Shown here piece after piece: positions 2,457-37,433 of a stretch of 37,433 bases of DNA. The notes beneath the pieces are model-generated. The model saw only the letters and a program-made list of their open reading frames with translations. It was not told the origin of the DNA and ran no database searches. The DNA comes from a virus. Made by a program: the position numbers and the translations under genes. Each line of letters opens with the position of its first letter. Position 1 is the stretch's first letter. The DNA lies in the IMG/VR virus record IMGVR_UViG_3300044733_003504, positions 1 through 37,433 of that record; one strand, 5' to 3'.

Positions 2457-3932
2457 TTATACACATAACCACAAGTCAACCTCTGCGTGAGTTGAAACGT
2501 AGGTTCTATATACTTTATAAATAGTGGGATTACCAAAAATATCAGGGATAATTACGTCGGGTCTAGAAATAATTGGAACAACGAATCCTGCACATCCTTC
2601 AGAACTATTTCTAATGATAGATGGTTGATTCATAAATGAAGGTATCAACAAATATCCATAACCACTTCCACTTACAATTGGAATGTGGATGTCAGTTGAA
2701 TTAAAGGATTGAACGTTGTCTAATAAATTTTCTTGACCTTCAGTAAATGACGGAGTTTGAAGTTTTCCAAAATACAATGTTGGTGCAATTGCTGGTGAAG
2801 CTGTTGGAGTCGGTGTTAATGTTGGGGTAAATGTTGGTGTTACAGATGGTGTGATAGAAGGTGTTGGTGTAATTGTTTGTGTTGGTGTAGTCGTTGGAGT
2901 TACGGTAGGTGTTATAGTTGGAGTTACAGTAGGTGTTGGTGTAGGTGTAAATGTTGGAGTTGCGGTAATTGTAACTGTTGGTGTTGTTGTTGGTGTAATA
3001 GTTACTGTTGGAGTTGGTGTTACCCCTATGGTTGGAGTTACGGTTGGTGTTACGGTTAAAGTCGGAGTTATAGATGGTGATGGTGTATTAGTTGTTGTAA
3101 TTGTCGGAGTTGGGGTTACAGACGAACCTGGTGTTGGTGTAGGTGTTGGCGTAGGTGTGGTAGTTGGTGTTGGTGTTACGTCTGTCACAATTATCACATC
3201 AAACACGGCGCTTCCTGTATAACCTGATACTTCGGTATTTGTAACAATAACATCACCATCCAAATCGCTATAATTATGATCTATTATTGTTTCGCTATAT
3301 CCGGTTGTTTGACCTGATTCTACTATTGTTGATTTTGGAACTGAAATATGTGTTCCATCTTGCATCATCAATATACATTCATAATCTACACATGTTTCGT
3401 AAGGTAAAGTTATGTTGTAATTTACGATTGATTGAACTATGATTGAACCAGGAACCACATTTACATGAATTGTAACCACAAGATCTGTTGCGGATGGGCT
3501 TGGTGTCGGGAATGGAGTTATACATGGATTCCATGTTGGAGTCGGTGTTGGTGTTAAAGTTTTGGTCGGTGTTGGCGTCGGAGTCAGAGTCGATGTCGGT
3601 GTAGGACTAGGAATTTGACACGGATCAATTGTTGGTGTAGGAGTTGGTGTTGGCGTAGGTGTCTGTGTCGGAGTTTTTGTCGGAGTTATTGTTGGTGTCG
3701 GTGTTGGGGTTGGTCTAACAACATTTAAAAAATAAGGACAATTGGACGAAACAGGTTTTATAGTATATGTTCCGTAGATTTCTCTTGCGGGTATTAGTAA
3801 ATAAGGTTCGAATAAAAAAGGTAAAGTTATTTCACCAAAGTTTAAAACAACATTATCGTTGTCTGGTTTGAATAGGACTTCAGCCAATTCACCATCATAA
3901 AAAACACTATTGATTACTATACTTTGACTCAT
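2457..3932 (-). CDS. Thr-Pro repeat virion protein (long TPTPT linkers)
   Basis: 491 residues, no recognised enzyme domain. The N-terminal 70 residues form a globular beta-rich domain. Then follow two low-complexity segments of alternating Thr-Pro (residues about 73-142 and 250-390) around a folded domain (about 150-245, with CVDYECILMMQDG), and a C-terminal domain (about 395-491). Such TP stretches form extended, rigid, protease-resistant rods and are frequent O-glycosylation targets in other systems; that is general knowledge, and use here is inference. The gene stop is 27 bases before the start of the 498-residue fibre gene, and its start directly abuts the stop of the gene at 3933-6116, so it belongs to the same operon. 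Repeat length is probably unstable between strains because the DNA is a degenerate minisatellite. Confidence 0.8.
   Translation of the reverse strand: MSQSIVINSVFYDGELAEVLFKPDNDNVVLNFGEITLPFLFEPYLLIPAREIYGTYTIKPVSSNCPYFLNVVRPTPTPTPTITPTKTPTQTPTPTPTPTPTIDPCQIPSPTPTSTLTPTPTPTKTLTPTPTPTWNPCITPFPTPSPSATDLVVTIHVNVVPGSIIVQSIVNYNITLPYETCVDYECILMMQDGTHISVPKSTIVESGQTTGYSETIIDHNYSDLDGDVIVTNTEVSGYTGSAVFDVIIVTDVTPTPTTTPTPTPTPTPGSSVTPTPTITTTNTPSPSITPTLTVTPTVTPTIGVTPTPTVTITPTTTPTVTITATPTFTPTPTPTVTPTITPTVTPTTTPTQTITPTPSITPSVTPTFTPTLTPTPTASPAIAPTLYFGKLQTPSFTEGQENLLDNVQSFNSTDIHIPIVSGSGYGYLLIPSFMNQPSIIRNSSEGCAGFVVPIISRPDVIIPDIFGNPTIYKVYRTYVSTHAEVDLWLCV
2790..3180 (-). repeat. Degenerate minisatellite encoding Thr-Pro repeats (long block)
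   Basis: About 390 bases made of variants of GTTGGTGT/GGAGTTAC (plus-strand reading), i.e. codons ACN CCN on the minus strand, with occasional Ile, Val and Ser. The strong purine/pyrimidine and codon bias makes a spurious ORF on the plus strand. Confidence 0.85.
3508..3716 (-). repeat. Degenerate minisatellite encoding Thr-Pro repeats (short block)
   Basis: A second Thr-Pro coding stretch in the same gene, interrupted by short Cys-containing spacers (IDPCQIPSP and WNPCITPFP). It lies N-terminal of the folded middle domain. Confidence 0.8.
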
Positions 3933-8935: not shown

Positions 8936-9841
8936 ATGGATAGTAAAATTGAAAAACAAATTATATCAGAATATAAAAATGGTAAAAGTAATATTGAAAT
9001 TGTAAAAATTGTTGGTCTATCAAAACCAACAATTCTTAAAGTCCTAAATAAACATAATCTAATTAGAAAAAGAGATAGGTGTTTAAGTTTAAATATTAAA
9101 AAAGATGGGGACAGATATTATGTTTTAAGGAAATGCCCAATGTGTAAAAATGATGTGAAAACGTCCTCTAAAGATAAAACAATTGCCTGTAGAAATCATT
9201 TCAACATAATTAATAGCAATTCATTGTGTAGAATTTGCATGGGTAAAAATAATACAGGAGAAGGTAACCCGTTTTATGGTAAAAAACACACAAAAAAAAC
9301 AAAGAAACAAATATCAAAAAATAGGAAAGGTAAAGCAATTGGGGACAAAAATAGTATGTCTAATATAATATGGAGAAAAAAAGCCAAGGATAATCTAAAA
9401 AAAAAGTGGGATAGTGGTGAATTAGATCATCTAAAACCTTTCTTTTCAGATTTAATGAAAAAAACGATAAGTCAAAAAAAAATTAAATCAGTAGTTAGGT
9501 CAAAAAAAGAAACAGAAATTATAGATCAAATTGAAAAAATGGGGTATTCTACTCAACATTCTTATATGGTTGAGTCAAAAATTTGTGATATTTACATACC
9601 TTCTTTAAATTTGATAATAGAATACAACGGAGACTATTGGCATTGTAATCCAAAAAAATACGAAGCAAATTATTACAATCAAAAAAAACAGAAATTTGCA
9701 AAAGAGTTATGGGAATATGATAAAAATAAAGTTGATTTAATATTAAAAAAGGGTTATAATTTAGAAGTGGTATGGGAATCAGATTTAAAAAATGACCATA
9801 CTATAATAAATAAACTAATAAAAAAATATGACAAAAAATAA
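8936..9841 (+). CDS. Homing endonuclease, NUMOD3 plus EDxHD/Vsr-like nuclease
   Basis: 301 residues. Residues 1-45 are a helix-turn-helix (SNIEIVKIVGLSKPTILKVL). Residues 60-103 hold CPMC...C...CRIC cysteines, probably a zinc ribbon. A NUMOD3 DNA-binding motif follows (NPFYGKKHTKKTKKQISKNR, about residue 113 on). The C-terminal 115 residues form a PD-(D/E)xK-type nuclease related to Vsr and EDxHD homing enzymes: 'ICDIYIPSLNLIIEYNGDYW' then H, with E-x-x-x-D...H as the likely metal site, and a late 'NLEVVWESD'. Such enzymes cut an intact target gene and copy themselves in. Its last 14 bases overlap the start of the glycosyltransferase gene at 9828, and a terminator lies upstream, so it looks like a free-standing insertion at that junction. 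Confidence 0.88.
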   Translation: MDSKIEKQIISEYKNGKSNIEIVKIVGLSKPTILKVLNKHNLIRKRDRCLSLNIKKDGDRYYVLRKCPMCKNDVKTSSKDKTIACRNHFNIINSNSLCRICMGKNNTGEGNPFYGKKHTKKTKKQISKNRKGKAIGDKNSMSNIIWRKKAKDNLKKKWDSGELDHLKPFFSDLMKKTISQKKIKSVVRSKKETEIIDQIEKMGYSTQHSYMVESKICDIYIPSLNLIIEYNGDYWHCNPKKYEANYYNQKKQKFAKELWEYDKNKVDLILKKGYNLEVVWESDLKNDHTIINKLIKKYDKK

Positions 9842-11072
9842 CCCCGTGAATGGTCGTGAGAGAATCAAAATATTGGTTCTCCCAAGTGACAAGTCCGGGG
9901 TTGGCTGAGGTAAATTTCGTTCAGTCGACCCCCACATCAAACTTCAAAATCTTTATCCCAACGATTTTCATGTTGATATTGATTACGAACCAAGAATCAA
10001 TGACATCAATTATTGGAAAAATTATCAAATTGTTCATTTCCATAGAAGTTTTGGAAACATTGATCAATGTCCTCAAATTATTAAGAGTTTAAAAAGTCTT
10101 GGTCTTATTGTAATTGCCGATCTTGATGATTATTGGTTACCAACAAAAGAACACCCAATTCATCAATTAATAATTGAAAGTAAGTTAAACACGAAAATTA
10201 TCGAAAACTTAAAAGTTGCCGATTACGTGACAACAACAACCGAAATATTTGCAAATGAAATTAGAAAGTTTAATAAAAACGTAATTGTTCTTCCAAACGC
10301 AATCGATCCAAAAGAACCCCAATTTAATCAACCAACACCCCCATCAGATAAAATTAGAGTTGGGTGGTTAGGAGGATCTTCACACTTACATGACTTGAAG
10401 TTATTGGATAACATGGTCAATAAATTAAGTTCTGTTCAAGACAAATTACAATACTATGTTTGTGGTTTTGATATTAGAGGAAGTGTTACTGAAATTAACA
10501 AACAAACTGGCGAACAAACTCAAAGACCGATCAAACCGCAAGAAACAGTTTGGGTAAAATATGAACAAATTTTTACAAACAACTACAATATAATTTCACC
10601 TGAATATAAAATCTTTTTAGATAAATTTGAAGATAAACCATTCGAAGGTGTTGAAAAAGAAAATTATGTTAGGGTTTGGACCCGTCCTGTAGATCAATAC
10701 GCAAGAAACTACTCTAACTTTGATATTTCGTTGGCACCAATTAAAAACCATATCTTTAATAGAATGAAATCTCAATTAAAAGTTATTGAGGCAGGATTTT
10801 ACAAAAAAGCTTTAATTGCATCAAATGTGGGCCCATATACTATAGATTTGAAACACGCAATTAAGAACGGTCAATTTACAGATGGAAATGCTCTTTTGGT
10901 TGATGAAGTTAGAAATCATAGCGATTGGTCAAAATGGATTAAAAAATTAGTTGATAATCCAAACATGATTACCGATCTTGGTGAAAGACTTTACGAAACC
11001 GTAAAAGATAAATATGACCTTAATGTGGTCACTAAAACAAGAGCAGACTTTTATAAATCTTTAATTAAATAA
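9828..11072 (+). CDS. GT-B glycosyltransferase with an in-frame UGA at codon 27 (recoded or disrupted)
   Basis: Reading from the ATG at 9828 gives 414 codons: MTKNNPVNGRERIKILVLPS then DKSGVG, a TGA at 9906-9908, and GKFRSVDPHIKLQ. The frame then stays open to 11072. The reading 'ILVLPSD..GVG..FRS.DPH' is a typical first strand and Gly-rich loop of GT-B glycosyltransferases, and 'VIADLDDYW', 'ADYVTTTTEIF', 'VLPNAID' and 'VGWLGGSSHLHDL' continue the fold; the C-terminal half has 'FNRMKSQLKVIEAGFYKKAL', the nucleotide-sugar side. So the 5' part belongs to the gene. TGA is a normal stop elsewhere in the window (for example at 12397 and 20458) and Trp is TGG. No ATG lies soon after the TGA to restart a nearly full protein. 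It may be recoded by a six-base hop, disrupted, or a sequence error. Confidence 0.8.
9897..9932 (+). other. Hairpin enclosing the in-frame UGA
   Basis: Bases 9897-9909 (GGGGTTGGCTGAG) pair with 9920-9932 (TTCAGTCGACCCC): 13 consecutive pairs, 10 Watson-Crick and 3 G-U, around a 10-base loop. The take-off Gly codon GGC and the TGA lie in the 5' arm, and the second Gly codon GGT starts at the loop. A stem this GC-rich is exceptional in this AT-rich coding sequence. Confidence 0.7.
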
Positions 11073-36756: not shown

Positions 36757-37433
36757 CTATTTAAATTTCCATTTATATCCTCCCGCACTTCGTCTTTGGT
36801 TATTACAAACCATCCTAATTGTGTTTCGGTTAATTAATAAATATTCAGATACTTCTTTTAATGACTTCCATTCAGCAACAAATTCACCATCTATTGTAAG
36901 TTGAATAACTGGTTTATATTTAGACTCAACACAAAATAATGATTGTTTTTTACCAAACATAGGATTTTTACCCCCTGTTCTACTTTTAGATAGTTTTTTT
37001 CTACCTTCTTCTGTTAATTTTCTTTTTTTCGCCGATTCCGACATCAATTTAATAGTTTCATCAGAAAATTTTCTATTTTTTAATTTCTCGGATATTTTTC
37101 TATTTGATTCAGGGCCATAATTACCCCCATCACCACCGTTAGTTAAATTATATAAATTAAATCCCCACGATTTAAATAACCCAATCCAATATTTTTCCCA
37201 AAATGACCATTCTGAAAACGGAATAACATCTAATATTTCTAAAATTGGTTTTTTATCTATCGAAATTAATTTTTTAATCCAATTATTTTTTTTTGTAATA
37301 GTATGTTTGTGTTTTCTTATATGTTCAATATACCTTTTAGGTGGGTTATCCGATTTACCAATATATTTAATACTAAAGTTTATAGGATCTTTCAAGCAAT
37401 ATATATAACTAATAATTGTTGATTGATCATTCA
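36757..37433 (-). CDS. GIY-YIG homing endonuclease, 5' end outside the window
   Basis: At least 225 residues, open to the window edge. The frame continues upstream of the TTG at 37395 as ...STIISYIYCLKDP, which supplies the first half of the nuclease signature (YIY...YIG: 'SIKYIGKSDNPPKRYIEHIR'), so the TTG is not the real start. Then come E of 'FSEWSFWEKYWI' and 'YNLTNGGDGG', the remaining nuclease motifs; two NUMOD3-like basic repeats (KISEKLKNRKFSDETIKLMS; GKNPMFGKKQS); and a C-terminal NUMOD1/IENR1 domain ('EWKSLKEVSEYLLINRNTIR', 'SAGGYKWKF'). It is intact through its C-terminus. Located immediately upstream of the prohead protease gene, probably between portal and protease genes. Confidence 0.9.
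   Translation of the reverse strand, partial: NDQSTIISYIYCLKDPINFSIKYIGKSDNPPKRYIEHIRKHKHTITKKNNWIKKLISIDKKPILEILDVIPFSEWSFWEKYWIGLFKSWGFNLYNLTNGGDGGNYGPESNRKISEKLKNRKFSDETIKLMSESAKKRKLTEEGRKKLSKSRTGGKNPMFGKKQSLFCVESKYKPVIQLTIDGEFVAEWKSLKEVSEYLLINRNTIRMVCNNQRRSAGGYKWKFK

Follow-up and report, generated by a model that had tools for sequence, protein, structure and literature searches.

The published accounts, as far as their passages on the subject go, present T4 gene 60 as the model of programmed ribosomal bypassing (PMC5009743, PMC3014915, PMC2988022, PMC11194080). Efficient bypassing in a phage or a bacterium has rested almost wholly on this one gene. Shorter counterparts have long been presumed, according to the available sections of a 2016 review, which also speak of in-frame stop hopping as being without a known natural occurrence (PMC5009743).

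The locus described here shares with gene 60 a glycine take-off codon with a stop right after it and a matched landing codon; a 5′ stem-loop upstream of take-off, the proposed motor in gene 60; relatives that lack the gap; and an adjoining homing endonuclease gene. Gene 60, however, has a gap of 50 nt in a single phage, and its endonuclease, MobA, is an HNH enzyme; here the hops would mostly be of 5–13 nt, the carriers are many, the nuclease is of the NUMOD3 kind, serine and arginine versions occur, and one phage differs from another in frame, stop and gap. Synthetic stop-hops in E. coli, as the review describes them, likewise place a stop between matched codons and need a short hop, but they are designed constructs, whereas the present sites are natural, recurrent and accompanied by a hairpin (PMC5009743). 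The mitochondrial bypassing of Magnusiomyces capitatus, in the same account, is alike in having many bypassed inserts in one lineage; it differs in its seeming independence of mRNA context and in that the codon presented in the A site is an unused one and not a stop (PMC5009743). In the tape-measure gene of mycobacteriophage Corndog an HNH insertion lies upstream, as the endonuclease gene does here, and peptides were found before any usual start codon; the authors name bypassing as one possibility (PMC4351075). The open-access literature, judged from titles, abstract openings and term counts, yielded no account of stop-hops as a natural family in phages; most subscription journals lay outside that scope.

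On the comparisons set out below, the locus is very probably a programmed bypassing (stop-hop) site that was imported with a mobile cassette consisting of an endonuclease gene, a recoded N-terminus and a coding gap.

The interrupted gene

The window, that is, the whole stretch of DNA analysed, is a virus record of 37,433 bases that encodes a T4-like major head protein, a head maturation protease and PhoH. Its relevant features are:

8936–9841, + strand: homing endonuclease gene, 301 aa, with a NUMOD3 motif and a C-terminal nuclease region
9828–9905, + strand: first part of the glycosyltransferase (GT) gene; ATG at 9828, 26 codons, MTKNN...KSGVG
9840–9902, + strand: predicted 5′ mRNA stem-loop, MFE −28.3, with its 3′ strand ending directly before the take-off codon
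9903–9905, + strand: putative take-off codon GGC (Gly), placed by the matched codons and the gapless homologues
9906–9908, + strand: coding gap, the TGA stop; absent from gapless homologues and from the predicted product
9909–9911, + strand: putative landing codon GGT (Gly)
9909–11069, + strand: main part of the GT gene, 387 codons from the landing codon, stop at 11070–11072; PHROG glycosyltransferase match, 1.6e-48

The GT gene is interrupted by GGC TGA GGT at 9903–9911 and is otherwise open; the codons at 9900–9914 read GTT GGC TGA GGT AAA. The first part carries an N-terminal extension that is missing in gapless relatives. A first-pass annotation had pointed to this in-frame TGA between two glycine codons, and it is confirmed. 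The nearly 390 codons of intact downstream frame that it had counted are the 387 found here, and its observation that no nearby ATG could restart translation holds as well: with the landing codon as codon 0, the first in-frame GTG, ATG or TTG is at codon 106 and the first ATG at codon 168. It had also spoken of six extra bases, and in gapless relatives GV and K/R-F/Y-RS are indeed separated by one codon. These homologues lack exactly the extra bases; the annotation's refuting case, a sense codon in place of the TGA between flanks of unchanged length, is not what they show, and the bypass that it had proposed is supported. Glycine and serine codons that switch together, gaps that are out of frame, the use of three different stops and a covarying 5′ hairpin that runs up to the take-off codon, all read from the sequences of relatives, point the same way.

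Two further IMG/VR contigs, L002 and L003, both taken from other samples, contain the same 11,161 nt with 0 differences. Sequencing error was rejected on these three identical assemblies and on the 22 types of junction among relatives; a plain nonsense mutation as the cause of the TGA was rejected too. TGA is an ordinary stop in the window, because 8 of 40 chosen ORFs end in it (TAG 8, TAA 24) and the 40 contain 125 TGG codons. Reading of the TGA as tryptophan was rejected on this normal stop usage and on the other stops at the junctions of relatives, selenocysteine on those other stops together with the other frames, and a group I intron for want of any Rfam match at the gathering threshold in the window.

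Junctions among relatives

To collect GT relatives from IMG/VR, the best 80 loci were first read in frame, and further scans added more; several of the searches kept their best 80 loci each, so that all frequencies given are those among collected loci and not those of a population. A loose first DNA pattern scan gave mostly chance among the matches listed, and from the pattern-scan loci L082–L200 only L113, L114 and L134 entered the junction reading. That reading began with 348 loci, 55 of which had no landing motif and were left out; the remaining 293, some of them from the same contig, comprise 215 gapless and 78 gapped loci. Gapless loci have a single glycine (GGN) or serine codon between GV (rarely GC) and KFRS-like residues. 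The gap is present at the GT site in at least 61 viral contigs, the window included (contig names, counted by hand). Gap loci reduce to 39 distinct sequences (70 nt plus junction; L182 and L421 were added by hand, and L493, found later, was left out) with 22 different junctions, and 22 junctions in 61 contigs is beyond chance. A scan of genome contigs found no relative; in the cultured-phage collection INPHARED no record has the main version, the relatives found in that search being below 60% identity, and the GT and endonuclease relatives present there are distant.

In 38 of the 39 distinct sequences the triplet next to the take-off codon is a stop (TGA 20, TAA 17, TAG 1). Gaps measure 2–10 nt in 38 of 39, and the hop from take-off to landing codon would be 5, 6, 7, 8, 9, 11, 12 or 13 nt, once 44 nt; where the hop is 5 nt, stop and landing codon overlap. 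Compared with gene 60, these gaps are too short for a take-off stem-loop, and one sequence, L257, has a hairpin within the gap. Twenty-seven sequences keep the frame across the junction and 12 do not. The first two bases of take-off and landing codon are identical in 38 of 39, one set of phages having Gly/Gly and another Ser/Ser (AGY). When G or A at take-off is tabulated against G or A at landing, the counts are 32 (G to G), 0 (G to A), 1 (A to G) and 6 (A to A) over the 39 sequences (p 2e-6), and 15, 0, 1 and 6 over the 22 distinct junctions (p 9e-5), kinship being ignored in both.

The one exception to this match is L348, from AGT to GGC, a landing that by reasoning G-U wobble can accommodate; its gapless relatives L443–L445, L448, L449 and L451 have serine at the site, as a hop from AGT would leave in L348. 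L421, which takes off from AGC and lands on AGA, is imperfectly matched as L348 is, and GGY goes to GGA in 4 of the 39. The sequence with the 44-nt hop is set out as follows:

L257:1309–1355: junction GGT GCT TAA, with a sense codon before the stop; hop of 44, gap of 41 nt

It is the sole gap of T4 size, contains a 9-bp hairpin (by eye) and is known from a single contig of 4.9 kb.

The 5′ hairpin

A long hairpin is predicted in all 39 distinct sequences, from about codon 6–8 to the take-off codon. Its 3′ end lies 0 nt from take-off in 30, 1 nt in 8 and 2 nt in 1, and in this the stem differs from that of gene 60: it extends right to the take-off codon. A further difference lies in the peptide: 24–28 codons precede take-off, and inspection of the 39 peptides found none of the KKYK that forms the gene 60 signal, although a nascent-peptide signal of another kind may be present. 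In the window the stem-loop at 9841–9902 has a z of −5.2, and 0 of 200 shuffles are equally stable. Over 80 nt, the mean MFE is −27.0 and the mean z −4.3 in 24 gap loci, against −8.2 and −0.07 (lowest z −2.5) in 71 gapless homologues; the hairpin is strong in gap loci and weak or absent in gapless homologues.

RNAalifold, run on ungapped alignments, returned almost no consensus structure, because the 5′ strand is 1–3 nt out of register between subfamilies; covariation was tested in its place by permuting the pairing of strands. Among 36 distinct strand pairs, position −4 is C-G in 29, G-C in 3 and U-A in 4, and position −7 shows six types of pair. Cognate strands sum to −826.8 as against a permutation minimum of −699.1, so that 0 of 20,000 permutations reach the cognate value, shared ancestry being kept in.

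In the motor model for the 5′ stem-loop of gene 60, as the relevant part of the review gives it, five pairs have formed and four are to come (PMC5009743). With the ribosome assumed to cover 15 nt upstream of the P-site codon, a mean of 9.3 pairs (6–12) could form behind it here and 13.0 (10–14) would still have to close; by analogy, these counts match the motor model, in a stronger form.

The endonuclease and the mobile cassette

The end of the endonuclease ORF overlaps the GT start by 14 nt, the overlap to which the first-pass annotation had drawn attention. The protein matches Pfam NUMOD3 (1.4e-7) and PHROG homing endonuclease (1.6e-11). Its own match to REase_MTES_1575 (0.0028) is weak and under the curated cut-off; NUMOD3 and REase_MTES_1575 are each matched by 11 of 11 aligned endonuclease relatives (E up to 0.1). 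Compared with PDB chains, the window endonuclease gave no I-Bth0305I/EDxHD match at E up to 1; the EDxHD type that the first-pass annotation had named was thus not confirmed.

By tblastn, an endonuclease or its remnant was detected in 38 of the 41 distinct gap loci, as against 12 of the 106 gapless ones. It had been predicted that relatives lacking the endonuclease would lack the extra bases too; 94 of the 97 distinct loci without an endonuclease match do, and the three others (L308, L182 and L421) keep the gap after loss or decay of the endonuclease. L308 retains a remnant of 50 nt, 82% identical; L182 and L421 have no convincing trace of one and have kept hairpin and gap, with GT frames open over 387 and 393 codons.

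Six pairs of gapped and less-gapped or ungapped neighbours were compared. In L284/L283, L201/L205, L213/L215 and L020/L024 the carrier holds an insert of ~1 kb with the endonuclease, and the N-terminus has been replaced; differences continue for ~30–45 nt past landing, after which identity is that of the flanks. The last differences in L201/L205 are synonymous (by eye), and the insert starts there after a terminator-like stretch. Such an insert, with such a pattern of differences between occupied and empty sites, would be the expected trace of co-conversion after a break near the site. In L008/L011 there is an endonuclease remnant only; in L249/L243 both members have the endonuclease. Gap carriers are scattered among gapless sisters in a GT tree of 92 rows; group shuffles of the tree did not set the observed arrangement apart (500 of 500 were as low), the class-B label being partly assigned by eye. 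Endonuclease, hairpin and gap behave as a mobile cassette, and most cassettes look recently acquired. The mobA-gap cassette of T4 gene 60 is reportedly the subject of a paper.

A related class of endonuclease is found in gapless loci, where it mostly ends ~40 nt before the site and the native N-terminus is retained (L005, L222, L243, L271–L280, L334–L338 and L340–L344; no gap). At the site L222 has serine (TCG) for glycine and L243 cysteine for valine, perhaps as alternative forms of resistance to cleavage. At the other end of the window, on the minus strand at 36757–37395, a GIY-YIG/NUMOD3 endonuclease gene lies immediately upstream of that for the head maturation protease and may start past the window end.

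Selection on the gapped gene and its predicted product

Downstream of the gap the frame is open in 39 of 39 distinct sequences, two of which run off the locus. Over 27 chosen pairs of gap carriers (L114 and L313, cut short, and L262, L267 and L314, with the start missing, being excluded), downstream pN/pS ranges from 0.055 to 0.387; the value of 0.055 belongs to L291 and L292, a fully supported clade of two carriers with 9 nonsynonymous and 42 synonymous differences. Part of this selection predates the gap, because most cassettes look recently acquired. In the 14 codons before take-off pN/pS is 0.25 over 37 distinct segments, codons that the hairpin also constrains.

In 12 contigs searched whole (up to 362 kb; they may be fragments) there is no second GT copy; in three of them an intein separates the two halves of a single GT gene, which appear as two matches. 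A back-up copy was rejected on this finding of one GT gene in each of the 12.

An extra codon at the site occurs in 0 of 215 gapless loci. G-V-G is invariant there in 12 aligned gapless GTs; in a wider set the glycine can be serine and the valine cysteine. A predicted model of the gapless L011 protein (mean pLDDT 81, about 66 for residues 11–20) matches GT-B glycosyltransferases, for example GlgM and MshA, and would put the site where helix 1 begins, after strand 1.

In the distant gap-carrying GTs L345, L346, L350, L355 and L360 an intein-like insert is seen, by eye, between GWLGGS and SHLKDL; an upstream endonuclease, a putative stop-hop and an intein meet there in one gene.

Other explanations

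Stop codon read-through or reassignment supposes that a tRNA decodes the stop as an amino acid, translation continuing in frame, as 27 of 39 junctions would permit. The other 12 are out of frame and their carriers are excluded from it already; all three stops are used at junctions; TGA ends 8 of 40 window ORFs, and the 37-kb record, which is all that was searched for tRNA genes, has none; moreover, 2–4 residues would be added in frame at a place where no gapless locus has even one more. This makes read-through highly improbable. Removal of the gap before translation, by excision from RNA or by reversion of DNA in part of the population, with help from the hairpin and a direct repeat, would account for the repeated codon that flanks the gap, since direct-repeat excision needs one. 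The repeat, however, is merely two bases in several loci, a stop stands at the would-be A site in 38 of 39, the gapped sequence is identical in three assemblies, the window has no Rfam match, and gaps of 2–10 nt (38 of 39) are far smaller than self-splicing introns are known to be; such removal is improbable. No agent is known to excise gaps of this size.

That the cassette simply inactivates the GT, and that the phage manages without it, could be argued from how recent many insertions look (the pairs L201/L205 and L284/L283). A dead gene is scarcely credible when two gap carriers in one clade differ with a pN/pS as low as 0.055 and the downstream frames are open throughout (39 of 39); when the gap outlasts loss or decay of the endonuclease in L182, L421, L308–310 and L291; when N-terminal codons and hairpin are conserved inside the cassette; and when none of the 12 contigs carries a second GT to take over. 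Alternatively, translation might terminate and re-initiate, with the C-terminal part made from a downstream start and working alone or with the short peptide. An ATG does occur 9–14 codons past landing in 18 of 37 gap loci, but the first start comes at codon 106 in the window and 166 in L249, and there is none within 200 in L214; the C-terminal part would, on the model, miss strand 1 of the N-terminal domain; and matched codons and the position of the hairpin are left unexplained. Re-initiation, too, is very unlikely as a general account, though it may occur in the 18 loci with an early ATG. Bypassing by re-pairing of the peptidyl-tRNA, by comparison, would explain together a stop placed in the A site, codons that match, indifference to frame, an intact product and a hairpin upstream.

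A second glycosyltransferase gene

A blind detector was built on three criteria: a stop after a codon, a stable hairpin ending there, and a matched codon opening a long frame. Run over 4,006,050 bases of collected loci it gave 62 matches, 59 of them distinct: 36 in the main GT gene and 23 elsewhere, the latter taken for chance without individual check. Over 102 endonuclease loci it gave 17 matches in the main GT gene and 26 elsewhere, and from these 26 L529 was picked because its two halves read as one GT. With L530 it makes one case, because the two contigs are of close sequence. The gene is a different GT, in which ...SDDLR is followed by CGA TAA CGA and then by LTSGIATVSR, an arginine version; the predicted hairpin (−24.4 kcal/mol, z −4.0) ends exactly at the first CGA. 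Gapless homologues join the halves, as DDLRLTSGIAT in Microcystis phage Mel-JY01 and DDIRMHSGIAT in Flavobacterium phage immuto. No free-standing endonuclease was seen directly upstream of the L529/L530 GT.

In Mel-JY01 (L538:1762–3253) the annotation divides the homologue of this second GT into two genes, separated by a stretch without homology. In L529, at about 2922–3900 and upstream of the GT, a NUMOD3-like endonuclease appears, by eye, to lie within an intein of a guaB-like gene; GuaB is annotated at the corresponding place in Mel-JY01.

The proposed hopping, its motor and its spread

The sequence architecture, its conservation and covariation, the mobility of the cassette and the selection on the gene are established; from them we infer the hop itself, the hairpin as its motor and protection from cleavage. 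A ribosome would halt after 24–28 codons, its P site occupied by the take-off codon (GGY or AGY) and its A site by the stop. By then the apex of the hairpin would have refolded behind it, and some 13 more base pairs would await forming, their 3′ strand still within the ribosome. As the stem closed it would pull the mRNA through; the peptidyl-tRNA would release the take-off codon and re-pair with the matching codon 5–13 nt (once 44 nt) downstream, and translation would resume to give the normal GVG-KFRS loop of a GT-B enzyme. It is plausible that the gap protects the site from cleavage by the endonuclease, and the gap would probably be retained through breaking that enzyme's own target site.

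It seems likely that hairpin-driven stop-hopping is a portable device: a stem that reaches up to the P-site codon would make a bacterial ribosome skip 2–10 nt at any stop and resume, whatever the frame, at the next codon that matches (Gly, Ser or Arg), with neither a nascent peptide nor a take-off loop of the gene 60 type. The device would spread with homing endonucleases through aquatic phages, would outlive them, and would have arisen in at least two glycosyltransferase families. The dozens of natural variants of gap, stop and codon form a mutational series by which the parts played by hairpin, stop, codon match and peptide can be told apart. Recurrence in dozens of related phages suggests that hopping sites are much commoner than one classic phage example. 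If the device is indeed portable, homing endonucleases can on repeated occasions settle next to a bypass gap; stop-hop sites lead gene finders to break up functional phage genes; and many phage genes that appear broken may be intact.
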